From the NCBI GenBank assembly GCA_020724465.1, contig DYGX01000009.1:62001-126000 (forward strand): a stretch of 64,000 bases of DNA, written 5' to 3'. The notes below the pieces were generated by a model, which did no database searches, was not told the DNA's origin, and saw nothing but the letters and a program-made list of their open reading frames with translations. The translations under genes were made by a program, and so were the position numbers. The stretch comes from Thermoflexus sp. Lineage in GTDB: Bacteria; Chloroflexota; Anaerolineae; Aggregatilineales; Aggregatilineaceae. Positions 24,282 through 38,302 of the stretch are shown piece by piece (positions within the stretch are counted from its first letter, which is position 1; the number at the start of each line of letters is the position of its first letter).

Positions 24282-25787
24282 ATGACGCTGACCCTTCTTG
24301 CCCAGGGAATTGTCAAACGCTACGGCGGCGTGATCGCTGTTAAGGACGGTCACTTGGAAGTCCAGTCCGGCGTAGTGGTCACGCTCGTCGGAGCGAATGG
24401 CAGTGGCAAGAGCACCCTCAGCAAAGTCATCACGGGAGTAGTTGCCCCCAACGAGGGGCAACTACTCCTCAACGGCGTGCCGGTCCAGTTTCCAACGCCT
24501 CAGGCCGCAAAAAAGCGCGGCATCGCGGCCGTCTATCAAGAACTCAGCCTGATCCCGGATATGACTGTGGCGGAAAATATCTGGCTGACCAACGAGCCGC
24601 TGCTGGGCGGGATCAGCCTGCGCCGTGGCGAGATGCGGCGGAAGACCCAGGAACTGCTCGACCTGTTCGCCGGAACCACATCCAACAACCTGACACCGGA
24701 CACTCTGGTCAACACGCTGCCGCCCGACGAGCGCCAGATCGTCGAGATTCTCAAGGCCATCAGCAGCCAGCCGCGCCTGGTGATCTTCGACGAAGCGACC
24801 GCCAGCCTGGACCGCTCTCAGGTTGACCGGCTGTTCGAGTTGATCCGGCAGTGGAAGCGCGAGGGCATGGCGATCGTCTTGATCACCCACCGCATGGACG
24901 AGATCTTTCGCGTGGCCGATCGCGTCACAGTCATGCGCAACGGCCAGACGGTCGGCACGGTCAACGCCGCAGACACCACCGACCGCGAGATCGTGCAGAT
25001 GATGATCGAGGGCGCTGCCGCGCCCGACGCCGGGCGCATGCCGCAGATCGACACAACGGCACCTGTTCGCCTGGAAGTCCGGGGGCTGCGTTGCGGGCGC
25101 CTGCAGCGCGCAGACCTGACGCTCCGCGACGGCGAGCTGTTGGGGTTGGGCGGGCTGCAGGGCCAGGGACAGACCGAACTCCTGCTGGCGTTGTTTGGCG
25201 CGCTGCCGTATGCCGGGACGGTGATCCTGGGCGGGAAGCCGGTTCGCTTCCGGCATCCACGCGACGCGATGAAGCACGGGGTTGCCTTTGTGCCGGGCGA
25301 TCGCGCCACGGAAGGCCTGCTGCTCTCGCGCTCGATCCTAGAGAACTTCCTGCTTCCGTCCTGGCAGCGATACGGCATCATTCATGATGTGGAAAGCGCC
25401 CGCCAGGACGCCACGACCGCCGCGCGAGACCTGTCGCTCGTCTATTCCACTCTGGACGCACCGGCCAGCAGCCTGAGCGGTGGCAACGCGCAAAAGGTCG
25501 TTATCGGAAAATGGCTGCTGAGACGGCCCAAGCTTCTGCTGCTCAACGACCCGACCAAAGGGGTCGACGTCGGCGCGAAGGCGGAATTCTACGCGCTGCT
25601 GCGGCAGCTCACCGCGCAGGGCACCGCCGTGTTGTTCTACAGCAGCGACGACGACGAGCTGCTGGGGCTGTGCAACCGCGTGCTCGTCCTGCAGGATGGG
25701 CTGGTCCGCGACGAACTCAGCGGCGAGCGTTTAACACGCGAGAACCTTGTGGCTGCCAGCATGGGAACAACGCATGAACAGCGTTAG
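24282..25787 (+). CDS. RbsA-type double ABC ATPase for sugar import
   Basis: A 501-residue cytoplasmic protein with two fused nucleotide-binding domains. Domain 1 has Walker A GANGSGKST, Q-loop AVYQELSLIPDMTVAENIWL, Walker B LVIFDEATASLD and switch His in LITHRMDEIF. Domain 2 has the degenerate P-loop GGLQGQGQTELL usual for this family, signature LSGGNAQKVVIGKWL and Walker B LLLLNDPTKGVDVG. In domain 1 the signature region reads LPPDERQIVEI instead of LSxGQxQ, an odd substitution. It energises the permeases at 25774 and 26739, with the tandem binding protein as receptor. Confidence 0.93.
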   Translation: MTLTLLAQGIVKRYGGVIAVKDGHLEVQSGVVVTLVGANGSGKSTLSKVITGVVAPNEGQLLLNGVPVQFPTPQAAKKRGIAAVYQELSLIPDMTVAENIWLTNEPLLGGISLRRGEMRRKTQELLDLFAGTTSNNLTPDTLVNTLPPDERQIVEILKAISSQPRLVIFDEATASLDRSQVDRLFELIRQWKREGMAIVLITHRMDEIFRVADRVTVMRNGQTVGTVNAADTTDREIVQMMIEGAAAPDAGRMPQIDTTAPVRLEVRGLRCGRLQRADLTLRDGELLGLGGLQGQGQTELLLALFGALPYAGTVILGGKPVRFRHPRDAMKHGVAFVPGDRATEGLLLSRSILENFLLPSWQRYGIIHDVESARQDATTAARDLSLVYSTLDAPASSLSGGNAQKVVIGKWLLRRPKLLLLNDPTKGVDVGAKAEFYALLRQLTAQGTAVLFYSSDDDELLGLCNRVLVLQDGLVRDELSGERLTRENLVAASMGTTHEQR

Positions 25788-26742
25788 GCTTCAGCACTTC
25801 CTGACACGCAATACTTATCTCTTTTCGCTGCTCCTGCTGGCGATCCTGCTCAGCGTCAATTACTCGCTGCAAGACAATCTCTTCGAGCTGCGGGTCCTCA
25901 ACAACTCGATGCGCACACTCCTGCCGCTCATTCTGCTGGCCGTGGGGCAGTCGGTGGTCGTCATCGGCGGCGGGATCGACCTCTCGGTTGGGACCATGGT
26001 CTCGATGCTTGTGGCGGTGTTGGTCAAGCTGATCAATGCCGAGTCCAGCGCGGCGGATATCGCTCTGGCCGTGCTGGCCGCCTGCGGTGTGGGAATTGTG
26101 GCGGGGTCGCTGAACGGGCTGGCGGTATCATATCTCCGGCTGCAACCCATCGTCACGACCTACGCCACCAGCTTTATCTTCTCCGGAGTGGCTCTGCTGC
26201 TCCTGCCCCGGCCCGGCGGTCAGATCCCTACCGAGCTGCGGCGCTTCTACGCGCAGACTCCGTACGGTGTGCCGCTGTCATTCTACGTGATCGGCGTGCT
26301 CCTGCTGCTCTGGACGCTGATCCGCTCGACCCGCTACGCGCAATACCTCTTCGCGACAGGCAGCCACAGCCAGGCCGCCTATACGAGCGGGGTTCCTGTC
26401 CGCGTGGTGCGGTTCAGCACCTACGTCTGGGCCGGGTTCTTTGCCGGGCTGGCGGCCACCGCCCTCACCTTCTCGACCGGGTCGGGCCAGGCCAACATCG
26501 GCGACAATATGACGCTGGACTCAATCGTGGCCGTGGTGCTGGGCGGGACGCGACTCAGCGGCGGCAAGGGCGGGATTGCCGGAGCGATCATCGGCGTCAT
26601 GATCCTGCGCGTCATCCGCAACGTGATCTTTTTCGCCGACGTGCCGACCTGGTCGCAGACGCTGGTCAACGCGCTGATTATCATTGCAGCGCTGGCCGGG
26701 CCGGGCCTGTTCGGTTTGGTACGACGGATGGTGAAGAAATGA
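25774..26742 (+). CDS. RbsC-type sugar permease 1
   Basis: A 322-residue polytopic permease of the ribose/xylose/inositol type. Family blocks are GQSVVVIGGGIDLSVGTMVSM, the GSLNGLAVSYLRLQPIVTTYAT loop and LDSIVAVVLGGTRLSGGKGG. The start at ATG 25774 overlaps the ATPase gene by 14 bp, so the two are translationally coupled. It presumably pairs with the next permease, since this operon has two rather than one. Confidence 0.92.
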   Translation: MNSVRLQHFLTRNTYLFSLLLLAILLSVNYSLQDNLFELRVLNNSMRTLLPLILLAVGQSVVVIGGGIDLSVGTMVSMLVAVLVKLINAESSAADIALAVLAACGVGIVAGSLNGLAVSYLRLQPIVTTYATSFIFSGVALLLLPRPGGQIPTELRRFYAQTPYGVPLSFYVIGVLLLLWTLIRSTRYAQYLFATGSHSQAAYTSGVPVRVVRFSTYVWAGFFAGLAATALTFSTGSGQANIGDNMTLDSIVAVVLGGTRLSGGKGGIAGAIIGVMILRVIRNVIFFADVPTWSQTLVNALIIIAALAGPGLFGLVRRMVKK

Positions 26743-27728
26743 ATCTCAGCAGCGTCAGCACCGGTATCCAACGCTCTTTTCCCTTCGTGCGCCACCTCAC
26801 GCCCCCGCTGATCGCGCTGCTGCTGGCCGTGCTTCTCTTCTTCGCGGGCGGGTTGGTCAAGCCGAATTTCGTCAACATCAACCAGGCAACCAACATCGTC
26901 CGTCTGGCCGCCTTCTTGGGGATCATCGCCGCCGGGCAGACCCTTGTCATCATCAGCGGCGGCGAGGGCATCGACCTGTCGGTTGGCGCTATCGTTACCC
27001 TGGCAGCGATGCTCACCTTCCGCTATACCAACGGCAACAACGGCCTGATCTGGTGGGGCTTTGTGCTCAGCTGCGGAGCCGGCCTGGCCGTGGGCTTCGT
27101 CAACGGGCTGGGGATCGCGCTGCTGCGCATTCCCCCGCTGGTTATGACGCTGGGTATGACCGGAGTTGTTCAGGGGACCATTCTGGTGGTGACCCAGGGC
27201 GAAATGCTCGGCGCCGCGCCGCCGCTGATGGCGAAATGGATCGCCCGGCCACTGGTTTTCGGCCTGCCCGGTGTGATCTTCATCTGGCTGGCGCTCGGCG
27301 TCCTGATGTGGCTGCTCCTCAACCGCACCACCTACGGCAAGCACCTGTTCGCCATCGGCACCAACCGGACGGCTGCCCGGCTTTCCGGCGTGCGGGTGCA
27401 GCAGGTGGTCATGATCACCTACATGCTGAGCGGCCTGCTGGCAGGCTTTGGCGGCTTCATCCTCTTGGGCTTCTCGCAGACGGTCTTTCTGCAATTGGGC
27501 AACAACTATCTTTTCCCGTCTATCGCGGCTGTGGTCGTCGGCGGCACGTTGCTGACCGGCGGCATGGGCAGCTATTGGGGCACCATGTCCGGCGCGCTGG
27601 TCCTCACGCTGATTGACAGCCTGCTGCGCGCCATGGAGCTGGAGCAGGCCTATCAGCTTATTATTGTTGGCATCATTCTGCTGGCGCTGATCACCGTCTA
27701 CGGGCGGCAGCGCAGCCTGCGGCAGTAG
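26739..27728 (+). CDS. RbsC-type sugar permease 2
   Basis: A 329-residue relative of the preceding permease with GQTLVIISGGEGIDLSVGAIVTL, GLAVGFVNGLGIALLRIPPLVMTLGM and FPSIAAVVVGGTLLTGGMGSYWG. It starts inside the stop of permease 1 (ATGA overlap). Two distinct permeases with one double ATPase implies a heterodimeric channel. Confidence 0.92.
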   Translation: MNLSSVSTGIQRSFPFVRHLTPPLIALLLAVLLFFAGGLVKPNFVNINQATNIVRLAAFLGIIAAGQTLVIISGGEGIDLSVGAIVTLAAMLTFRYTNGNNGLIWWGFVLSCGAGLAVGFVNGLGIALLRIPPLVMTLGMTGVVQGTILVVTQGEMLGAAPPLMAKWIARPLVFGLPGVIFIWLALGVLMWLLLNRTTYGKHLFAIGTNRTAARLSGVRVQQVVMITYMLSGLLAGFGGFILLGFSQTVFLQLGNNYLFPSIAAVVVGGTLLTGGMGSYWGTMSGALVLTLIDSLLRAMELEQAYQLIIVGIILLALITVYGRQRSLRQ

Positions 27729-27758
27729 GTGGGTGCATGGTTTAATAAGGAGAGACAG

Positions 27759-28844
27759 ATGGATAAGGTTCGCTTAGGGATAATCGGCAGCGGCTTCATC
27801 GCGAACATTCATGCGGACGGCCTGCGGCATGTGCCCCAGGCGGATCTCGTCGCGGTCGCCAGCCGCACCCCCGGCAAAGCGCGCGCCTTTGCCGACGCGC
27901 GCGGAATCCCCGACGCCTACGACGACTATGAGGAGATCCTCAAGCGGGACGACATCGACGCGATCACCGTCGCCGTACCCAACTATCTGCACGAGGAAGT
28001 CGTCGTCGCGGCGGCGCAGGCGGGCAAGCACATTATGTGCGAAAAACCTTTCGCCCGCAGCCTGCCCGAAGCCGAGCGCATGCTCGCGGCGGTGAAAGAA
28101 GCGGGCGTTAAACTGGTCTATGGCGAGATGCTATGCTTCGCGCCGAAGTACGTGCGCGCCAAGCGCCTGGTCGATGAAGGCGCGCTGGGCCGGGTCTTCC
28201 TGGTCAAGCAGAGCGAAGAACACGATGGCCCGCACTCGCCCTGGTTCTGGGATGTCAACCTCTCCGGCGGGGGCGTGCTGCTGGACATGGGCTGCCACAG
28301 CATCGAGTTCGCCCGCTGGATTCTGGATCGGCCTGCGGTCAAGAGCGTGCAGGCAACGCTGGGGCGTTTTGTGCATCTTGACCGAACCCAGGGCGAAGAT
28401 CACAGCGTGGTGATCATCGAGTTTGAAAACAACGCGATCGGCATTGCGGAGAATAGCTGGGCGAAAACCGGCGGTATCGACGACCGCTGCGAGATCTACG
28501 GCAGCCTGGGGAACACCCGCGCCGACCTGATTCACGGCAACGCGCTGATGACCCACAGCAAAGTCGGCTATGGCTACGCTGTTGAAAAAGCGGACACCAC
28601 CACCGGCTGGACTTTTACCGGCTTCGAGGAAGAGTGGAACTACGGGTTCCCTCAGGAGATGCAGCACTTCGTCAACGTAGTGCTCGGCAAAGAGGAGCCA
28701 ATCGAAACCGGGCAGGACGGACTGGAAGTCTTGAAGATCATCTACGCCGCCTACCAGTCCGCCGGAGAGGGCCGCCGCATCGAGTGGCCGTACGAGCCGC
28801 CGCAGGTCGATAAGCCGGTTGACCTGTGGCTGCAAGCGCGCTAG
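27759..28844 (+). CDS. Gfo/Idh/MocA-family NAD(P)-dependent sugar dehydrogenase
   Basis: A 361-residue oxidoreductase. An N-terminal Rossmann fold (VRLGIIGSGFIANIHADGL) is followed by the MCEKPFARS motif with the catalytic lysine, and a C-terminal substrate domain with GGGVLLDMGCHSIEFARWIL. The family oxidises or epimerises sugars, inositols or amino sugars. ATG 27759 has AAGGAGA 5-6 nt upstream. It lies 30 bp after the permease, so it most likely performs the first catabolic step on the imported sugar. Confidence 0.9.
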   Translation: MDKVRLGIIGSGFIANIHADGLRHVPQADLVAVASRTPGKARAFADARGIPDAYDDYEEILKRDDIDAITVAVPNYLHEEVVVAAAQAGKHIMCEKPFARSLPEAERMLAAVKEAGVKLVYGEMLCFAPKYVRAKRLVDEGALGRVFLVKQSEEHDGPHSPWFWDVNLSGGGVLLDMGCHSIEFARWILDRPAVKSVQATLGRFVHLDRTQGEDHSVVIIEFENNAIGIAENSWAKTGGIDDRCEIYGSLGNTRADLIHGNALMTHSKVGYGYAVEKADTTTGWTFTGFEEEWNYGFPQEMQHFVNVVLGKEEPIETGQDGLEVLKIIYAAYQSAGEGRRIEWPYEPPQVDKPVDLWLQAR

Positions 28845-28894
28845 GTGCCGCCGGGCAGCCCTGCCTCTTGTGCAGATTCGCCATACCGGATTTC

Positions 28895-28923
28895 TTGACA
28901 GCGACGCGGAAGGTTTTTATTCT
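28895..28923 (+). promoter_or_regulatory. Strong sigma-70-type promoter of the lysine operon leader
   Basis: A consensus TTGACA (28895-28900), an exact 17-bp spacer and TATTCT (28918-28923). It is the best promoter match I noticed in the window. Transcription would start near 28930, about 365 nt before the lysW start codon, giving a long leader. Confidence 0.75.
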
Positions 28924-28929
28924 GGTAGC

Positions 28930-29099
28930 TGTACTTGGCACAGAACGCATACGATAGGTTCGCAGTCCGATGTCGCTGACCAGCAAGTGCTCGAAGCAGG
29001 AGAAGAAGACCCGCGTCTCGTGAGACGAGTGGTGATGTTCTGCTGGTAAGCGCCCAGCACCAGACGACGGAAACGCCACTCGACCCGGGTGGCGTTTTT
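28930..29099 (+). ncRNA. Structured leader or small RNA upstream of the lysine operon
   Basis: This stretch lies between the strong promoter and an intrinsic terminator and has no convincing coding frame. It can form a 12-bp helix with one G-A mismatch (28974-28985 with 29041-29052), enclosing a CGTCTC/GAGACG hairpin. It lacks the T-box AGGGUGG core and the lysine-riboswitch sequence blocks I would expect. It may be a free small RNA or the first half of a two-stage attenuated leader. Confidence 0.4.
29071..29099 (+). terminator. First intrinsic terminator in the lysine leader
   Basis: The 9-bp stem AAACGCCAC / GTGGCGTTT closes a GC-rich loop and is followed by TTTTT (29095-29099, partly in the stem). 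It lies downstream of the promoter and upstream of the leader peptide, so readthrough past it is required for lysine gene expression from that promoter. Confidence 0.7.
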
Positions 29100-29114
29100 C
29101 ATTGGCGGACTATC

Positions 29115-29174
29115 ATGATGACCATGCACCTACCCATGCCGGACAAGAAGGCGAAGAAGCACATCCCACCCTAG
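29115..29174 (+). CDS. Lysine leader peptide (attenuator control peptide)
   Basis: A 19-codon frame, ATG 29115 to TAG 29172-29174, encoding MMTMHLPMPDKKAKKHIPP. Four of five consecutive codons (29145-29159) are AAG lysine codons. ATGs at 29118 or 29124 are alternative starts; GGCGGA 8 nt upstream is a possible ribosome site. The stop lies 45 nt before a strong terminator that precedes lysW. Ribosome stalling on the lysine codons when charged tRNA-Lys is scarce would favour an antiterminator, as in classical attenuation. From memory, leader-peptide attenuation has been reported for the Thermus thermophilus lysine cluster, which uses the same pathway. Confidence 0.8.
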   Translation: MMTMHLPMPDKKAKKHIPP

Positions 29175-29218
29175 CGGCGGAAGCCGGTAGTGTGCTTGGT
29201 GCTGTATCGATCGCCAGC

Positions 29219-29257
29219 GCGCCTCCCCGGACTTTTGCCGGGCGAGGCGCTTTTTTT
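29219..29257 (+). terminator. Attenuator terminator before lysW
   Basis: A stem GCGCCTC-CCCGG (29219-29230) pairs with CCGGG-C-GAGGCGC (29238-29250), one bulged C, 7-nt loop, followed by seven Ts (29251-29257). It ends 36 nt before the lysW ATG. A competing helix GTGCTG with CAGCGC (29215-29220) invades its 5' arm and could be part of an antiterminator. Confidence 0.85.
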
Positions 29258-29293
29258 CTCACACGGATCACACAAGGCAGAGAGGAGACAGAC

Positions 29294-29464
29294 ATGAATC
29301 AGGTTGAGTGTGTGGAGTGTGGCACGACGGTGAGCGTCCCCGACAATGTCATGCGCGGCGAGATCCTGGTCTGTCAGGACTGCGGCACAGAGCTGGAAGT
29401 TATCGAGCTGGACCCGTTGACGGTCGATCTGGCCCCGCTCGAAATGGAGGACTGGGGCGAATGA
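29294..29464 (+). CDS. lysW: LysW, lysine-biosynthesis amino-group carrier protein
   Basis: A 56-residue acidic carrier. A zinc ribbon is formed by Cys6/Cys9 and Cys27/Cys30, and the chain ends in the conserved EDWGE. The side-chain carboxyl of the terminal Glu is linked by LysX to the amino group of alpha-aminoadipate, protecting it through the following reduction steps. GAGGAG about 7 nt before ATG 29294 fixes the start; an upstream extension in the same frame has no support and runs through the attenuator. Its stop overlaps the lysX start (ATGA). Confidence 0.96.
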
Positions 29465-30318
29465 GGATCGGGATTCTGTGCAGCCGGGTGCGCGTCGAGG
29501 AAAAGCTGCTCTTCGAAGCGTTCGCGCGCCTGGGTGTGCCGGTCGAACAGGTAGACGACCGCGCCCTGGCCATGCGCGCCGGCGAGGGGACACCCCCGGT
29601 CGATCTCATGCTGGTGCGAAGCATCAGCACGGTCACCGGGCTGGCCGCGGCCCTGTTGCTGGAGTCCGCCGGGGCGCGCGTGATCAACAGCTACGCAACG
29701 GCCAGCACCTGCGCGGACAAAGCCCGCACGACGGTTGCGCTGGCCGCGGCGGGTATTCCCCAGCCCGTCACCGAGATCGCGCTTGGCCCCCAGGCCGCGC
29801 TGGACGCCATCGAGCGCATAGGCTATCCGGCCGTCCTCAAACCGGCGCTTGGCTCGTGGGGGCGGCTGCTGGCGCGGGTCAACGACCGCGACGCCGCCGA
29901 AGCGATCCTGGAGCACAAGGAAACGCTCGGCGGTCCGCACCACCAGGTCTTCTACGTTCAGGAATACATCTCCAAGCCGGGGCGAGACATCCGCGCCTTT
30001 GTGGTCGGCACGGAAACGATCTGCGCCATCTATCGCAGCGCCGACCACTGGATTACCAACACAGCACGCGGCGGGCGCGCCAGCAACTGCCCGGTCACGC
30101 CGGAGATCGACGCGCTGTGCCGGCAGGCGGCTCTGGCTGTCAGCGGCGGCGCGGGCGGCGTGCTGGCGATCGACCTGCTGGAAGACCCGGCACGCGGGCT
30201 GCTGGTGTGCGAGGTCAACCACACGATGGAGTTTCGCAACAGCATCGACACCACCGGGGTCAACATCCCGGAGCGTATCGCTCGCTACGCCCTGGCAGAA
30301 ATGAGCGTGGTGGCATGA
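29461..30318 (+). CDS. lysX: LysX, LysW-alpha-aminoadipate ligase
   Basis: A 285-residue ATP-grasp enzyme joining alpha-aminoadipate to the C-terminal Glu of LysW. The opening [20 protein letters not shown] is diagnostic for LysX/RimK relatives. The ATP-grasp core shows [14 protein letters not shown] and [19 protein letters not shown]. The metal-binding end is [11 protein letters not shown]; an Asn-His-Thr-type motif here is usual for the lysine rather than the arginine enzyme. It is translationally coupled to lysW and lysY by 4-bp overlaps. Confidence 0.95.
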
Positions 30319-31373
30319 CAATCCGCAACGGCAGCGACCGTCTCACGGTGGGCATCGTCGGCGGCTCCGGCTACACCGGCGGCGAGCTGCTGCGCTTGTT
30401 GCTGCATCACGACGGCGTCGCGGTGACGCAGGTCACGTCCGAGACACACGCGGGCGCTCCCCTGCCCCAGGTTCACCCTCATCTACGCGGTCAAACGGAC
30501 CTGCGCTTCATCAGCCGCCAGCGTCTGGCACCCTGCGACGTGTTGTTCCTCGCCATGCCGCATGGCCAGGCGCAGGCGGAGATCGAGCGCTACGCCGGCC
30601 TCGCGCCGCGCCTGATCGACCTCAGCGCGGATTTCCGGCTGCGCGACGCCGACCGGTACACGCGCGCGTACGGTCACGCGCACGCCGCGCCCGCCTGGCT
30701 GGAGCGCTTCGTGTATGGCCTGCCGGAGATCAACCGCGACGCGCTGCGCGACGCGTGCTACGTCAGCGGGGTCGGCTGCAACGCGACGGCCGTCCTGCTG
30801 GCGCTGTGGGCGCCGGTGCGCGGCGGGCTGCTCGACGCGGGCCAGCCCCTGATCGCCGATGTCAAGGTTGGCAGCAGCGAGGCGGGCAACACGCCGACGG
30901 CAGCCTCGCACCACCCGGCCCGCAGCGGCGTGGTGCGCCCCTTCCAACTGACTGGCCACCGGCACGAGGATGAGGTCCGGCAGGCGCTGGGCGACAGCTT
31001 CGACGTGCGCATCGCGGTGACCAGCGTCGAGATGGTGCGCGGGGTCGCCGCGGCGGTGCATATTACGCTGCCAGCCGGCCTGGCCGAGCGGGATCTGTGG
31101 GCGTGCTACCGCGCCGCGTGGACCGGTGAGCCGTTCGTGCGCATCGTGCACACCGCGCAGGGTCTGCACCGCCACCCGGAGCCGCGCCTGCTGGCAGGCA
31201 CCAACTACGCTGATGTCGGCTGGGAATACGACCCGCAGACCGGCCGGGCGGCCCTGCTGTGCGCCCTGGACAACCTGGGCAAAGGGGCGGCGGGCACCGC
31301 GGTGCAATGCCTCAATCTGATGTGCGGCTTTGAGGAAACGACCGGGCTGAGTTTCGGAGGGTTCTTCCCATGA
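30315..31373 (+). CDS. lysY: LysY, LysW-aminoadipyl phosphate reductase
   Basis: A 352-residue ArgC-like NADPH-dependent reductase giving LysW-aminoadipate semialdehyde. A Rossmann start ([19 protein letters not shown]) is followed by the catalytic Cys155 in [11 protein letters not shown] and the substrate-binding [19 protein letters not shown]. The C-terminal [17 protein letters not shown] is conserved in ArgC. Context with LysW and LysX identifies it as the lysine version. It overlaps lysX and lysZ by 4 bp each. Confidence 0.94.
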
Positions 31374-32191
31374 TCCACGTTTTGAAGATCGGCGGCGGGG
31401 CCGGGATCGACGCCGCGCCCGCGCTGCACAACTTGGCCGAGCGCGTGCGCAACGGCGAGCGGTGGGTGCTGGTGCATGGCGCCAGCGCCGCCGCCGACGC
31501 CCTCGCCGCGCGGATGGGCGTCCCGGTGGAGACGATCACCGGACCCGGCGGGCACGCCAGCCGCTACACACCCCCGGCGATGATCGACCTGTACTGCGCC
31601 GCCGCCGCGTCGGTCAGCCAGCAGAACGCCGCAATCCTGGCCGGGCTGGGCGTCGGCGCGGTGGGCTTGGCCGGTCCAAATGTCATCGCCGCGCGGCGCA
31701 AGACCGCCATCCGCGCGCTGCGCGACGGGCGGCCCGTCGTCATCCGCGACGACTGCTCAGGGACGATCACGGGCGTGAACGGCGCGCTGCTCGACGCGCT
31801 GCTCAGCGCCGGGTTCACGCCGGTGATCGCGCCGGTGGCCCTGGGCGAAGAAGGCGAGCGCCTGAACGTCGACGGCGATCTGGTGGCAGCAGCCGTGGCG
31901 CGGGAGCTTGGCGCTGAGACATGCGTCATCCTCAGCAACGTGCCCGGCCTGCTGCGCGACACGGACAACCCGGCCTCGCTGGTGCGCCGCATCGGGCAGC
32001 ACGAGATCGACGCCTACGAAGCGCTGGCACAGGGACGCATGAAGAAAAAGCTGCTGGCCGCGCGCCAGGCCCAGCCCGCACGGGTGATCCTGTCGAGCGC
32101 GGGAGTCACCCGGCCGCTGGATGCCGCGTTGAACGGCAGCGGCACCCATATTGTCGCGCCGGGGGTGGTCTATGCTGGCAACTCCGGCTGA
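31370..32191 (+). CDS. lysZ: LysZ, LysW-aminoadipate kinase
   Basis: A 273-residue amino-acid-kinase-fold protein of the ArgB family that phosphorylates the side-chain carboxyl of LysW-bound aminoadipate. It shows VLKIGGG and VHGASAAAD (nucleotide and substrate glycine loops), the LNVDGDLVAAAVA block and LSNVPGLLRD, and ends with GRMKKKLLAA. The order X-Y-Z is the standard operon order of the pathway, although LysZ acts before LysY. Confidence 0.94.
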   Translation: MIHVLKIGGGAGIDAAPALHNLAERVRNGERWVLVHGASAAADALAARMGVPVETITGPGGHASRYTPPAMIDLYCAAAASVSQQNAAILAGLGVGAVGLAGPNVIAARRKTAIRALRDGRPVVIRDDCSGTITGVNGALLDALLSAGFTPVIAPVALGEEGERLNVDGDLVAAAVARELGAETCVILSNVPGLLRDTDNPASLVRRIGQHEIDAYEALAQGRMKKKLLAARQAQPARVILSSAGVTRPLDAALNGSGTHIVAPGVVYAGNSG

Positions 32192-33347
32192 CACGCTGGC
32201 GCTGGAGCAGCGCCACACCAGCGGCGCGTATGCCAAGCGCGCGCTTCAGATCGTGCGCGGCGAAGGCGCCCGCCTTTTCGACGCAGACGGCAACAGCTAC
32301 ATCGACTGCGCCAGCGGGATCGGCGCCGCCAACCTGGGGCACGCTCACCCGGCCGTGCTGGCCGCGCTGGCCGGGCAGGCAGCCGAGCTGATCGTCTGCC
32401 CGGAGCTGTTTCACAACCCCGTGCGCGCGCGCTACCAGGCCGCGCTGTGCCAGGCGGCGGGGATGTCGCGCGTCTTCCTGTGCAACAGCGGCACGGAAGC
32501 CGTCGAAGCAGCGATCAAGATCGCCCGCCTGTCTACCGGGCGTCCGGGCATCGTTGCCGCCATGCGCGCCTTTCACGGGCGCACGCTCGGCGCGCTGAGC
32601 GCCACCTGGAAAAAAGCCTACCGCGAGCCGTTCGAGCCGCTGGTCCCCCAGGTGCGCCACGTCCCGTTCAACAGCATCGAGCACCTGGAGCGCGCGCTGA
32701 CGCCCCAGGACGCCGCCGTGATCCTCGAAGTGGTGCAGGGCGAGGGCGGCGTGCATCCGGCGGACGCCGGGTATCTGGCAGCGGTGCAGGCGCTGTGCCG
32801 CGCCAACGGCTCGCTGCTGATCATCGACGAGGTGCAGACCGGCTTTGGGCGCACCGGGCGGCTGTTCGCCTTCCAGCATGAGGGAATCGAACCGGACGTG
32901 GTGTGCGTGGCAAAGAGCATGGCGGGCGGCCTGCCGATGGGCGCCGTGCTGATGGGCGAGCGTGTCGAGCCGCTGTCGCCGTCGTCGCACGGCAGCACGC
33001 TGGGCGGCAACCCGCTGGCGTGCGCCGCCGGGCTGGCGGTGCTGGACGTGCTCCAATCGACCGATCTGATCCCGCGCGCAGCGGCGCTCGGCGAGGCAGC
33101 GCTGGCGCATCTGCGCGCGCGCCTGCCCGGCGGCGCAGTGCGCGACGTGCGCGGGCGCGGGCTGATGATCGGGGTCGAACTGCGCGGCAAAGTGACCGAT
33201 GTGCTGGCCGCGCTCCAGGCACGCGGCGTGCTGGCGCTGCCCGCCGGAGTTACCGTGCTCCGGCTGCTGCCGCCGCTGGTCATCACCGAAGACGATTTGT
33301 GGCAGGCGATTTTCGCCGTCGAGGAGGTCATCGGCCGTGCCGCTTGA
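32172..33347 (+). CDS. lysJ: LysJ, LysW-aminoadipate semialdehyde aminotransferase
   Basis: A 391-residue class-III PLP aminotransferase of the ArgD type producing LysW-lysine. PLP lysine is Lys248 in VAKSMAGGLPMG. Other class-III hallmarks are FLCNSGTEAVEAAIKIAR, FHGRTLGALSAT and IDEVQTGFGRTG. The ATG at 32172 overlaps lysZ by 20 bp. As in Thermus, it might also serve arginine biosynthesis, since no ArgD is seen here; that is inference. Confidence 0.93.
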   Translation: MLATPADTLALEQRHTSGAYAKRALQIVRGEGARLFDADGNSYIDCASGIGAANLGHAHPAVLAALAGQAAELIVCPELFHNPVRARYQAALCQAAGMSRVFLCNSGTEAVEAAIKIARLSTGRPGIVAAMRAFHGRTLGALSATWKKAYREPFEPLVPQVRHVPFNSIEHLERALTPQDAAVILEVVQGEGGVHPADAGYLAAVQALCRANGSLLIIDEVQTGFGRTGRLFAFQHEGIEPDVVCVAKSMAGGLPMGAVLMGERVEPLSPSSHGSTLGGNPLACAAGLAVLDVLQSTDLIPRAAALGEAALAHLRARLPGGAVRDVRGRGLMIGVELRGKVTDVLAALQARGVLALPAGVTVLRLLPPLVITEDDLWQAIFAVEEVIGRAA

Positions 33348-34479
33348 CAGCTATCACATCATCGACAGCACGTTGCGCGAAGGCGAGCAGTTCAGCACCG
33401 CCGCCTTCAGCCCGGCCCAGAAACTGGAGATCGCCGGCCTGCTCGACGAGTTCGGCGTCGAGATGATCGAAATGACCACGCCCTGCGCGTCGCCCCGCAG
33501 CGAGGCCGACATCCGCATGCTGGTTGGCGCGGGGCTGAAGGCGCGCATCCTGACGCACATCCGCTGCCACAAAGACGACGCGCTGCGGGCGCTGGACACA
33601 GGCGTTCACGGGCTGGACGTCGTCATCGGGACGTCCGCGCCGCTGTTGGAGCACAGCCTGGGCAAGGACATCAACCAGGTGATCGACTCGGCGCTGGACG
33701 TCCTGAGCTTTGTGCGCCAGCAAGCGCCCGATGTCATCCTGCGCTTCAGCACCGAAGACACGTTCCGCAGCCGCGAAGCCGACCTGCTGCGCGTCTATCT
33801 GGCCGTGGCCGATCTCGGCGTGGTGGACCGGCTGGGTGTGGCCGACACCGTGGGCGTGGCGCTGCCGTCTCAAGTCTACACGATGGTGAGCCAGCTTGTG
33901 CGCCTGACCGGGCTGGACGTCGAATTTCACGGGCACAACGACAGCGGCTGCGCCATCGCCAACGCCTGCGCCGCGCTGGAAGCAGGCGCCACGCACGTCG
34001 ACACGACGGTGCTCGGCATCGGCGAGCGCAACGGGATCACCCCGCTCGGTGGCCTGATCGCCCGGCTCTACACGCTCGACAGACGCTATGTCGCCAAGTA
34101 CAAGCTCCCCCTGCTGCCGGCCATCGACCGCACCGTCGCCGCGATGATCGGCGTAGACATCCCGTTCAACACCTATATCACGGGGTCCAGCGCCTTCATC
34201 CACAAGGCGGGCATCCACGCCAAAGCCGTGCTGGCCGATCCGTCGACCTACGAGATCATCCGGCCGCAGGACTTCGGTCTGACGCGCCAGGTCCCCATCG
34301 GCCACCGCCTGACCGGCTGGAACGCGGTCCGCGAGCGATCCCTGTCGCTGGGACTCAGCCTGGACGAAGCCACCCTGCGCGCCATCGCCCGCCAGATCAA
34401 GCACCAGGCCGACGAGCGGGTGCTGTCTGCGCAGGAGATCGACACAATGCTGCTCAGGGCAGCGGGGCAGGAAGCGTGA
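33337..34479 (+). CDS. Homocitrate synthase
   Basis: A 380-residue DRE-TIM metallolyase condensing 2-oxoglutarate with acetyl-CoA, the first step of the pathway. The N-terminal [10 protein letters not shown] carries the catalytic Arg14 and metal-binding residue. The metal histidines are in [14 protein letters not shown] and the second conserved block is [13 protein letters not shown]. The start is a GTG inside the lysJ end, with GAGGAGG 9 nt upstream. The HxSxGxE-like loop [12 protein letters not shown] and conserved [14 protein letters not shown] agree with homocitrate rather than isopropylmalate synthase; the allosteric domain of isopropylmalate synthase is absent. Confidence 0.92.
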
Positions 34480-35735
34480 TGGCCGGGCGAACCTTTGCCG
34501 AGAAAGCCCTGGCGCGGGCGGCGGGCGTGCCCGATGCGCGGGCGGGCGACATCCTCGACGTGACGCCGGACCTGATGCTCAGCCACGACAACTCGGCGGC
34601 GATCAGCCAGATCTTCCGCGAGACGGGCGCTGCGCAGGTGGTCTACCCGGAGCGCATCGCAATCACGCTCGACCACGCCGTGCCCGCGCCGACCACCCGC
34701 CACGCTCAGAACCACGCCGAGATCCGCGAGTGGGTGCGCCAGCAGGGCATCGCGCACCTGTTCGAGGTGGGGCGGGGCATCTGCCACCAGGTGATCGCCG
34801 AAGAGGGTCTGATCCTGCCCGGCGAGACGGTCCTGGGGGCCGACAGCCACACCACGCACGCGGGGTGGCTCGGCGCGTTCGGCGCGGGCGTGGGCCGCAC
34901 AGAGATGGCCGCGCTGTGGGCCACCGGCCAGCTTTGGATGCGCGTGCCGGATGCCATCCGGATCACGCTGAGCGGCCGTCTGGCGCGGGGTGTCACGGCC
35001 AAGGACGTCGCGCTGCACATCCTGGCCGCGCTGGGACCCACCGCCGCGCTCTATCGCTCGGTTGAGTTCGCAGGGGACGGGCTGGCAGGGCTATCGCTCG
35101 ACGAGCGCCCCGTGCTGCCGAATATGATGGCCGAGGCGGGCGCCAAGAACGCGTACCTGCCGCCCGATGACGCGGTCTTCGCCTATCTGGAGCCGCGCCG
35201 CACGCGCGATTACACCCCGCTCTACCCCGATCCGGACGCCGAATACGTCGCGGACTACCGCTTCGATCTGGACTCGCTCGCGCCGCAAGTCGCCCTGCCG
35301 GAGCAGCCCGATCACGTCCGCCCGGTCACTGACGTGATCGGCCAGCCGGTGCAACAGGCGTTCATCGGCACTTGCACCAACGGTCGCCTGGACGATCTGC
35401 GCGCCGCAGCACAGATCCTGCGCGGGCAGCGCGTCCGCTGCCGGCTGATCGTCATCCCGGCCAGCGCCGAGGTCATGCTGGCGGCAGCACGCGAGGGGAT
35501 TCTCGACACCCTGATCAGCGCCGGCGCGGCGATCGGCACGCCCGGCTGCGGGCCGTGTATGGGGAACCACATGGGCATCCCGGCGCCGGGCGAGGTCACG
35601 ATCAGCACCGGCAGCCGCAACTTCCGGGGCCGGATGGGCACCCCGGACGCGCCCGTCTATCTCGCCAGCCCCTACGTGGTCGCAGCCAGCGCCATCTGGG
35701 GAACAATCACCGATCCGAGAGAGGTCCTGGCATGA
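34479..35735 (+). CDS. Homoaconitase large subunit (LysT type)
   Basis: A 418-residue aconitase-superfamily protein that, with the small subunit, converts homocitrate to homoisocitrate through homoaconitate. The [4Fe-4S] ligands are Cys in [16 protein letters not shown] and the pair in [14 protein letters not shown]. Substrate residues include the [11 protein letters not shown] block. ATG 34479 shares its A with the upstream TGA; a GTG one codon earlier is an equal possibility. The leucine-pathway isomerase is the main alternative, but the operon settles it. Confidence 0.92.
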
Positions 35736-36232
35736 GAACGGAACATCGCTGCTGGGTCTATGGCGACAATGTGAACACCGACGTGATCTTTCCGGGGCGC
35801 TACACCTACACGCTGCGCGAGCCGCGCGAGATCGCCGCGCACGCCCTGGAAGATCTGGACCCGGACTTTGCGCCGAACGTGCGCCCCGGCGACGTGATCG
35901 TGGCAGGCGCCAACTGGGGCTGCGGCAGCAGCCGCGAGCAGGCCGTCACCGCGCTGAAATTCGCCGGGGTCGCCCTGATTATCGCTTCGTCGTTCGCGCG
36001 CATCTACTTCCGCAACTGCATCAACCAGGGCTTGCTCCCGATCATCATCCCCGGCCTGAACACGCAGCTGCGTACCGGGGACACGCTCGTCTGGGATCGC
36101 GAGGCGGGGACGATCAGCACCCAGGGCGGCGTGTACCCCATCCCGCCGCTGCCGCCTTCGGTCCAGGCGATCCTGGACGCCGGGGGCCTGCTGCCGATGC
36201 TCCAGCGACGCTTCCGGCAGGGCGAGCCATGA
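35732..36232 (+). CDS. Homoaconitase small subunit (LysU type)
   Basis: A 166-residue swivel-domain subunit, overlapping the large-subunit gene by 4 bp. It contains [15 protein letters not shown] and the mobile active-site loop [13 protein letters not shown]. Length and motifs match LeuD/LysU. It completes the [4Fe-4S] hydratase made with the preceding gene. Confidence 0.93.
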
Positions 36233-37197
36233 CGCACACCGTCACGCTGATCCCCGGCGACGGCATCGGGCAAGAAGTCATCCCGGCGGCGCGCACCGTG
36301 CTCGAACGGCTCGGCGTTCCGCTGGCGTTCCACCAGGCCGAGGCTGGCTTCGGCACGTTTCAGGCACGCGGGACGGCGCTGCCCGACGACACGCTGCGCC
36401 TATGCGAAGCCAGCGACGCGATCCTGTTCGGCGCGACCGGCTCGCCCCTGGCGCGGGTCGAAGGCTATCACAGCCCGATTCTGGCCCTGCGCCGCCATTT
36501 CGATCTGTTTGCCAACCTGCGCCCGGCCTGCGCGGACGGGATCGACGTGCTGATCGTGCGCGAGAACACCGAGGGCCTCTACAGCGGGCGCGAGCGCCTG
36601 GAAGACGGCGGGCAGACGGCCATCGCCGAGCGGGTCATCACGGCGCGGGCGTCCCGGCGTATCGTTCGCGCAGCGTGCGAGCAGGCGTTGCGCCGGCGCC
36701 ACCACCTGACGCTGGTGCACAAGGCGAACGTGCTGCGGGAAAGCTGCGGGTTGTTCCGGCGCGTTGGGCTGGAAGTCGCGCAGGATTACCCGCAACTGCG
36801 TGTTGACGAGCTGCTGGTCGATACGGCGGCGCTGACGCTGGTCCAGGACCCGGGGCGCTTCGATGTGATCGTCACTACCAACCTGTTCGGCGACATCCTG
36901 AGCGATCTCGCCGCCGGGCTGGCGGGCGGCCTGGGACTGGCGCCATCGGCCAACATCGGCGCAGCGCCGCCCGCGCTCTTCGAGCCGGTGCACGGCAGCG
37001 CGCCGGATATCGCCGGGCGCGGCATCGCGGACCCGCGCGCGGCCATCCTCAGCGCCCTGATGATGCTGGACTATCTTGGCTACGAACGGCTGGCGTCGGC
37101 GGCCCGGCGCGTCGTGCTGGCGACCGCCCACACCGGCAGCACGCAGCGCACCACCGAGGCGATCTGCGCCCGCCTGGAAAGGGAACTGCATGTCTGA
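36229..37197 (+). CDS. Homoisocitrate dehydrogenase
   Basis: A 322-residue beta-decarboxylating dehydrogenase converting homoisocitrate to 2-oxoadipate. N-terminal LIPGDGIGQEVIPAA, substrate loop SPILALRRHFDLFANLRP, VRENTEGLYSGRE, the catalytic Lys in HKANVLRE and the Mg-binding NLFGDILSDLAAGLAGGLG are all present. Isopropylmalate and isocitrate dehydrogenases are relatives; placement between homoaconitase and lysK makes homoisocitrate the likely substrate. It overlaps lysU-type and lysK genes by 4 and 8 bp. Confidence 0.92.
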   Translation: MTHTVTLIPGDGIGQEVIPAARTVLERLGVPLAFHQAEAGFGTFQARGTALPDDTLRLCEASDAILFGATGSPLARVEGYHSPILALRRHFDLFANLRPACADGIDVLIVRENTEGLYSGRERLEDGGQTAIAERVITARASRRIVRAACEQALRRRHHLTLVHKANVLRESCGLFRRVGLEVAQDYPQLRVDELLVDTAALTLVQDPGRFDVIVTTNLFGDILSDLAAGLAGGLGLAPSANIGAAPPALFEPVHGSAPDIAGRGIADPRAAILSALMMLDYLGYERLASAARRVVLATAHTGSTQRTTEAICARLERELHV

Positions 37198-38302
37198 GCC
37201 GAACGCCGATCTTCTAATCGAACTGGTGCGCCGCGCCAGCCCGTCGGGGCACGAAGCCGCCGCGGTCGCGTTCCTGGTCGACTGGATGCGGGCGCATGGC
37301 TTGGTCGCCTACGTGGACTCCGCCGGCAATGCGATCGGCATTCGCGGCCCGGAGCGCGCGCGCTTCACGCTGATGCTGCTGGGGCACATCGACACGGTGC
37401 CCGGCCAGGTCCCGGTCGCCGTGCGGGATGGCGCGCTATATGGCCGGGGCAGCGTGGACGCCAAAGGGTCGCTGGCCGCCTTCGCCGAGGCGGCGGCCCA
37501 GGCCGCGCTGCCGGATGGCTGGCGCGTGGTGGTCGCCGGCGCGGTCTGCGAGGAAACCGACAGCCGGGGCGCGTACCATATCCGGGACAGCTTCGAGCCG
37601 GACGCCTGCATCGTCGGCGAGCCAAGCGGCGTCGACCGGGTGGCGCTCGGCTACAAAGGCCACGTCTGGTTCCGATACACGCTGGCGCAAGCGGAAACGC
37701 ACAGCTCGCGGCCCGAACCAAGCGTCGGGGCGCTCGGCGCGGCGTTCTGGCACGCGGTCTTGAGCTGGTCCGAAAACGCCAACCAGGGCTACGAGCGCCA
37801 CTTTGACCAGGTGGTGCCCCATCTCAACGCCATCAACACGCGCAGCGACGGTCTGGAGGCGGTCGTCGTGATGTCGATCAGCTTCCGGCTGCCGCCGCGC
37901 CTCGCGCCAGACGACGTGCGCGCGGCTATCGCCCCGCTGGCCGCGCCGGGCGCCCGGCTGGAGATGGATCGCGGCGTGGGGGCATATCTAGGCGCGAAGG
38001 ACAACGCCCTGGTGCGCGGCATGGTCGGCGCGATCCGCGCCCAGGGGCGGCGCCCGGCGTTTGTGCTGAAGAGCGGCACCAGCGATATGAACGTGGTCTG
38101 CACACGCTGGCTCTGTCCGTTGATCGCTTACGGGCCAGGCGACAGCCACCTCGACCACACGCCCGACGAACACCTGCCGCTGGACGACTACGCGGCTGCA
38201 ATCGTCACGCTGCGGCACTTCATCGAGCATCTGGAACCCGCGGCAGAGCTGGCCCCGGCCCAGGGCACGACTTTGCCGGCAGAGCAGCGCGGTGATCTAT
38301 AA
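37190..38302 (+). CDS. lysK: LysK, LysW-lysine hydrolase
   Basis: A 370-residue M20-family zinc carboxypeptidase that releases lysine from LysW. Metal ligands lie in [21 protein letters not shown], the [13 protein letters not shown] glutamates and [14 protein letters not shown]. It begins 8 bp before the end of the preceding gene, with AAAGGGAA upstream. A related role in arginine release from a carrier (ArgE-like) is possible. This is the last recognised pathway gene; the 2-aminoadipate aminotransferase (LysN type) is not in the cluster. Confidence 0.93.

Follow-up and report, generated by a model that had tools for sequence, protein, structure and literature searches.

RNA control of lysine genes is best known from riboswitches, and a leader-peptide attenuator, reportedly a single one, is said to have been described for the lysine cluster of Thermus thermophilus (J Biol Chem, 2005). 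The Thermus cluster reportedly resembles the locus studied here in its LysW/alpha-aminoadipate pathway and in a short translated leader followed by a terminator; it differs in having one attenuator, whereas in the Anaerolineae, members of another phylum, two stand in series, mostly before lysW.

A biosynthetic operon is normally under a single attenuator (PMC3641672). In the his attenuators described in PMC9413887 and the actinobacterial trp attenuators of PMC1262725, as far as the available text of these sources goes, a series of codons specifying the amino acid that the operon makes, alternative 1:2, 2:3 and 3:4 helices and an intrinsic terminator before the first gene recur in Proteobacteria and Actinobacteria, as they do here, where the 1:2 helix is a predicted one. 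That same text gives one attenuator per operon and no lysine example, whereas the present leader has lysine codons and two complete units. Tandem attenuators have been called a singular example in Salmonella mgtCBR, where, as proposed here, two short leader ORFs on one leader mRNA control transcription elongation, but the two mgtCBR units answer different signals, ATP and proline (PMC3641672), while both units here are for lysine. The double (tandem) T-boxes of Firmicutes, mentioned in the available text of PMC9413887, likewise place in series units that sense the charging of one tRNA, though by that account T-boxes bind tRNA without translation, whereas each lysine leader unit would need a translating ribosome. 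What is new relative to these described cases is the succession of two complete leader-peptide units for the same amino acid, and our literature search, which covered few subscription journals, returned no account of lysine leader peptides from Chloroflexota.

The locus lies in a genome of 4.4 Mb, within a window by which we mean the whole 64 kb stretch of DNA analysed, and all of its elements are on the plus strand. The regulated operon has the order lysWX-argC(lysY)-lysZ-lysJ-HCS-hacA-hacB-HICDH-lysK: lysW comes first (29294-29464; NCBIfam TIGR01206, above cut-off), and lysX, argC/lysY, lysZ, lysJ, homocitrate synthase, the large and small homoaconitase subunits, a homoisocitrate dehydrogenase-like gene and lysK of the alpha-aminoadipate lysine pathway follow at 29461-38302. 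From the gene content of 29294-38302 the product of the operon is lysine, which agrees with the codons of the leader, as the preliminary description had proposed. Upstream of the operon and on the same strand, two sugar-type ABC permease genes and a Gfo/Idh-like oxidoreductase gene were recognized from their translations alone (25747-28844). The same genome also encodes a second, distant LysW-like protein with 35% identity (G000:C1:13830-13976), and similar extra copies occur in several relatives.

The leader as a whole spans 28895-29257 and comprises one promoter, two leader frames and two terminators. The sigma-70-like promoter TTGACA-17-TATTCT (28895-28923; one found against 0.2 expected) serves the leader transcript and is followed by leader peptide 1, MSLTSKCSKQEKKTRVS (28970-29023), which contains SKCSKQEKK, with the Lys-codon run AAG CAG GAG AAG AAG at 28994-29008. 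Segment 2 of attenuator 1, CGAGTGGTG (29026-29034), lies 17 nt past the last Lys codon and pairs with segment 3, CGCCACTCG (29074-29082), which is part of terminator 1, AAACGCCACTCGACCCGGGTGGCGTTT followed by T (29071-29097). The second unit repeats this order: leader peptide 2, MMTMHLPMPDKKAKKHIPP and a stop codon (29115-29174; 19 codons), contains KKAKK, encoded by AAG AAG GCG AAG AAG at 29145-29159, and terminator 2, GCGCCTCCCCGGACTTTTGCCGGGCGAGGCGC (29219-29250, with T7 at 29251-29257), begins 44 nt past the leader-2 stop codon, with 36 nt left between its T7 tail and lysW. It was this second unit that had been recognized beforehand, and its frame, its terminator with the T7 tail and the distances to leader and gene all hold. 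The extent then given to the attenuator is right for leader 2 and too short overall, missing the upstream leader and terminator 1. The competing helix then proposed, GTGCTG with CAGCGC, is replaced by a conserved pairing of segment 2, CGGCGGAAG (29175-29183), with segment 3, CTTTTGCCG (29232-29240), within terminator 2.

A strict scan of both strands of the window returned leader 2 alone; leader 1, with only 3 Lys per 6 codons, was recovered after the threshold was relaxed to 3 Lys in 6 codons. This relaxed scan for a Lys-rich short frame followed by a terminator gave leaders 1 and 2 and nothing else on either strand. Since only about 17 nt separate the end of terminator 1 from the leader-2 ATG, there is no space for a promoter between the two units, and across tandem loci 4-93 nt lie between terminator 1 and the first start codon of leader 2, which places both leaders on one transcript. 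Of 39 tandem loci, 30 have a promoter-like site no more than 145 nt upstream of leader 1, compared with 5.0 expected from shuffles. Shine-Dalgarno sequences with at least 4 matching bases precede 50 of 113 leaders against 25 of 113 by chance, a moderate excess only.

From these parts, their order and their covariation, we infer attenuation of the trp/his type, and the lysW operon leader very probably consists of two serial transcription attenuators of the classical, ribosome-dependent kind, each a sensor of charged lysyl-tRNA. A single transcript from the promoter at 28895 would carry leader 1, terminator 1, leader 2, terminator 2 and lysW. When Lys-tRNA is ample, the ribosome trailing RNA polymerase would translate the whole Lys run, reach the stop codon and mask segment 2, and the terminator would form. 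When Lys-tRNA is scarce, the ribosome would stall on the Lys codons and leave segment 2, about 14-17 nt further on, free to pair with segment 3 as an antiterminator that blocks the terminator. A polymerase that has passed terminator 1 would then meet a second, similar switch, and since expression of the operon would require read-through at both terminators, the two ratios would multiply, and the pair should leak less and respond more steeply than a single attenuator would.

The same anatomy is conserved in relatives. In a relative from the same genus (Anaerolinea sp. isolate Tomsk_5_66_7, L092), leader 1 is MSLISKCSKQEKKAIVS and leader 2 is MMILHLSLSDKKAKKHNPP, at equal offsets and with near-identical terminators; close relatives thus do carry a Lys-rich frame and a terminator, the check that had been suggested for this locus. 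Among 151 non-redundant lysW upstream regions, a set that takes in the window and the named genomes, 42 have two leaders and 29 have one, and the tandem leaders are spread over seven or more families of the class Anaerolineae. The strict scan detected leaders in 44 of 90 lysW regions and in 0 of 1800 dinucleotide shuffles, and when it was repeated for every amino acid it returned 44 loci for Lys, 4 for Arg and 0-1 for the others, such that the leader signal is essentially Lys-specific. The Lys codons change synonymously while Lys is kept (AAG 329, AAA 67), and the middle codon of KKxKK varies among relatives.

At the RNA level, segment 2 has its complement within the terminator in both leaders, either in the 5' arm or in the loop, and it starts at a median of 17 nt (leader 1) or 14 nt (leader 2) past the last Lys codon. 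The paired segments differ by species and are yet complementary, as in CGAGTGGTG/CGCCACTCG, GTCCGGGC/GCCCGGAC, TCAGGCG/CGCCTGA, TGAGTGCGGGC/GCCCGCACTCA and TTTCGGGC/GCCCGAAA, and the family members' equivalent of attenuator 2 is CGGCGAT(T) paired with (A)ATCGCCG. The 42 tandem loci hold 37 distinct segment 2:3 helices in leader 1 and 35 in leader 2. When partners were swapped between species, a test that ignores the kinship of the species, the 2:3 score in leader 1 was 20.8 for the own partner versus 14.4 for swapped partners (z = 12, 0/5000 permutations), and in leader 2 it was 17.8 versus 14.9 (z = 7.3, 0/5000 permutations). In five leader-2 loci of family f8, a gapless helix search yielded merely a 4-bp segment 2:3 helix. 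RNAalifold returned zero pairs in a consensus of 28 diverse leader-1 sequences, probably due to competing alternative helices and differing registers; its place was taken by the helix-swap test together with a count under a fixed structure in 18 sequences. A sequence-only alignment of these 18 leader-1 regions shows 14 double-changed cells in the antiterminator where 4.8 are expected from shuffles (0/500), a signal that is lost on sliding by 1-3 columns, while at the terminator the rows of this alignment are out of register and the count is uninformative.

Constrained folding of the window sequence gives a different result for each ribosome position. A ribosome placed on the Lys codons makes the antiterminator the top-ranked fold of the RNA that reaches to the terminator loop, and one at the stop codon makes it the terminator. 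The complete terminator beats the antiterminator thermodynamically even with a stalled ribosome, and for this reason the switch has to work kinetically, like known attenuators. A pause hairpin (1:2), which would free the terminator when the leader goes untranslated, is predicted in both window leaders and was seen by eye in relatives.

These data can be weighed against three other explanations. If leader 2 were the sole lysine attenuator, the upstream frame and hairpin would be remnants or a plain insulating terminator, and both the presence of a single leader in 29 of the 71 leader-bearing regions and the poorer Lys content of leader 1 in the window would fit. This is nevertheless improbable, since leader 1 of many relatives has a clear KKAKK, its antiterminator covaries more strongly than that of leader 2, and the promoter sits upstream of leader 1. 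Furthermore, a rule that simply takes the longest frame upstream places that frame on the opposite strand in 18 of the 42 tandem loci, which indicates that the terminators are more than the ends of adjacent genes.

The Lys-rich peptides could instead be functional small proteins, or arrest peptides whose own sequence (for example poly-basic or KKP motifs), and not a shortage of lysyl-tRNA, halts the ribosome, and a KKPDxRSG ending does recur in many leader-2 peptides, namely in loci of family f2 (for example L022, L033, L032 and L053). We regard this as very unlikely, as PDxRSG maps onto a hairpin, CCNGA...TCNGG, directly past the Lys codons, WRR, HIPP or TNRT stand in its place in other families, and the peptides vary outside the Lys run even between species of one genus; in f2, RNA constraint seems to shape the peptide ending. 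Least credible of all, and already strongly disfavoured, is control by a lysine-binding riboswitch or a T-box with the short frames incidental, even though lysine genes of other phyla are commonly regulated by RNA in the form of lysine riboswitches, and T-boxes are direct sensors of tRNA. The conserved parts are Lys codons and short helices rather than a large aptamer, an Rfam search of the window at the gathering threshold gave no match, and the weak Rfam matches in 28800-29320 include neither a lysine riboswitch nor a T-box. The Rfam lysine riboswitch was also absent from 20 lysW loci without detected leaders. Lysine attenuation, as the preliminary description had read the locus, is instead supported by conserved Lys codons that alternate between AAA and AAG, conserved spacing, a covarying antiterminator, a conserved promoter and recurrence at a second lysine operon.

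This recurrence emerged from the related genomes. In 61 of them, the matches of a leader-1 covariance model are mostly lysW leaders. In a genome where the pathway is split (G054), leaders MVKIMVMSISKQAKKHTPER and, next to it, MTLHDIKKTKKHIPPD, both followed by a terminator, lie directly before homocitrate synthase-hacA-hacB, and in two other genomes (G565 and G568) a Lys leader, MFAQFVCKQVKKQPPERIVRAFVLS, precedes homocitrate synthase; among the other homocitrate synthase loci checked, none has a Lys leader of its own. The leaders of the homocitrate synthase operons indicate that control tracks the lysine pathway and not the lysW neighbourhood. Three matches of covariance model R2 (L230, L231 and L232) were judged to be chance because no lysine gene lies downstream. 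At L230 (G045:C177, about 512-644), a frame, MVALQSVGLPLNLMLMKKAKFAKD, and a terminator stand before an MFS transporter; the frame overlaps another reading frame and is probably fortuitous, though the transporter may be a lysine-related exporter. In the window's own genome, histidine leaders were sought and none was seen among 30 of 53 matched places.

Such leaders are missing from all 26 lysW loci of other Chloroflexota classes and from the lysW loci sampled from Synergistetes, Acetothermia, Bipolaricaulota, Chloroflexus, Herpetosiphon, Binatia and Ignavibacteria, and in family f7 of the same order leaders are absent from nearly all sampled genomes. In family f69, from another Chloroflexota class, lysW itself occurs in two or three tandem copies (G477:C141:6462-7000, G505:C30:40418-40784 and G533:C1:423214-423589). 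In genome G009 (L242, G009:C3:451133-452251) the homocitrate synthase match contains a single in-frame TAA, although the operon is conserved in other respects.

It is slightly more likely than not that the serial pair for one amino acid is an ancient standard module of the Anaerolineae, selected for a steep, low-leak, multiplicative response to lysyl-tRNA charging, and that it had more than one origin or copying event, at the lysW operon and separately at the homocitrate synthase operon. The Chloroflexota are a mostly uncultured phylum, and these data suggest that lysine control in the class Anaerolineae operates via leader peptides. A conserved pair for the same amino acid would be a natural multiplicative switch, directly testable for steepness and leak. 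As the proposed mechanism needs a ribosome close behind RNA polymerase, the conservation of these leaders would also be comparative evidence for transcription-translation coupling in Chloroflexota.
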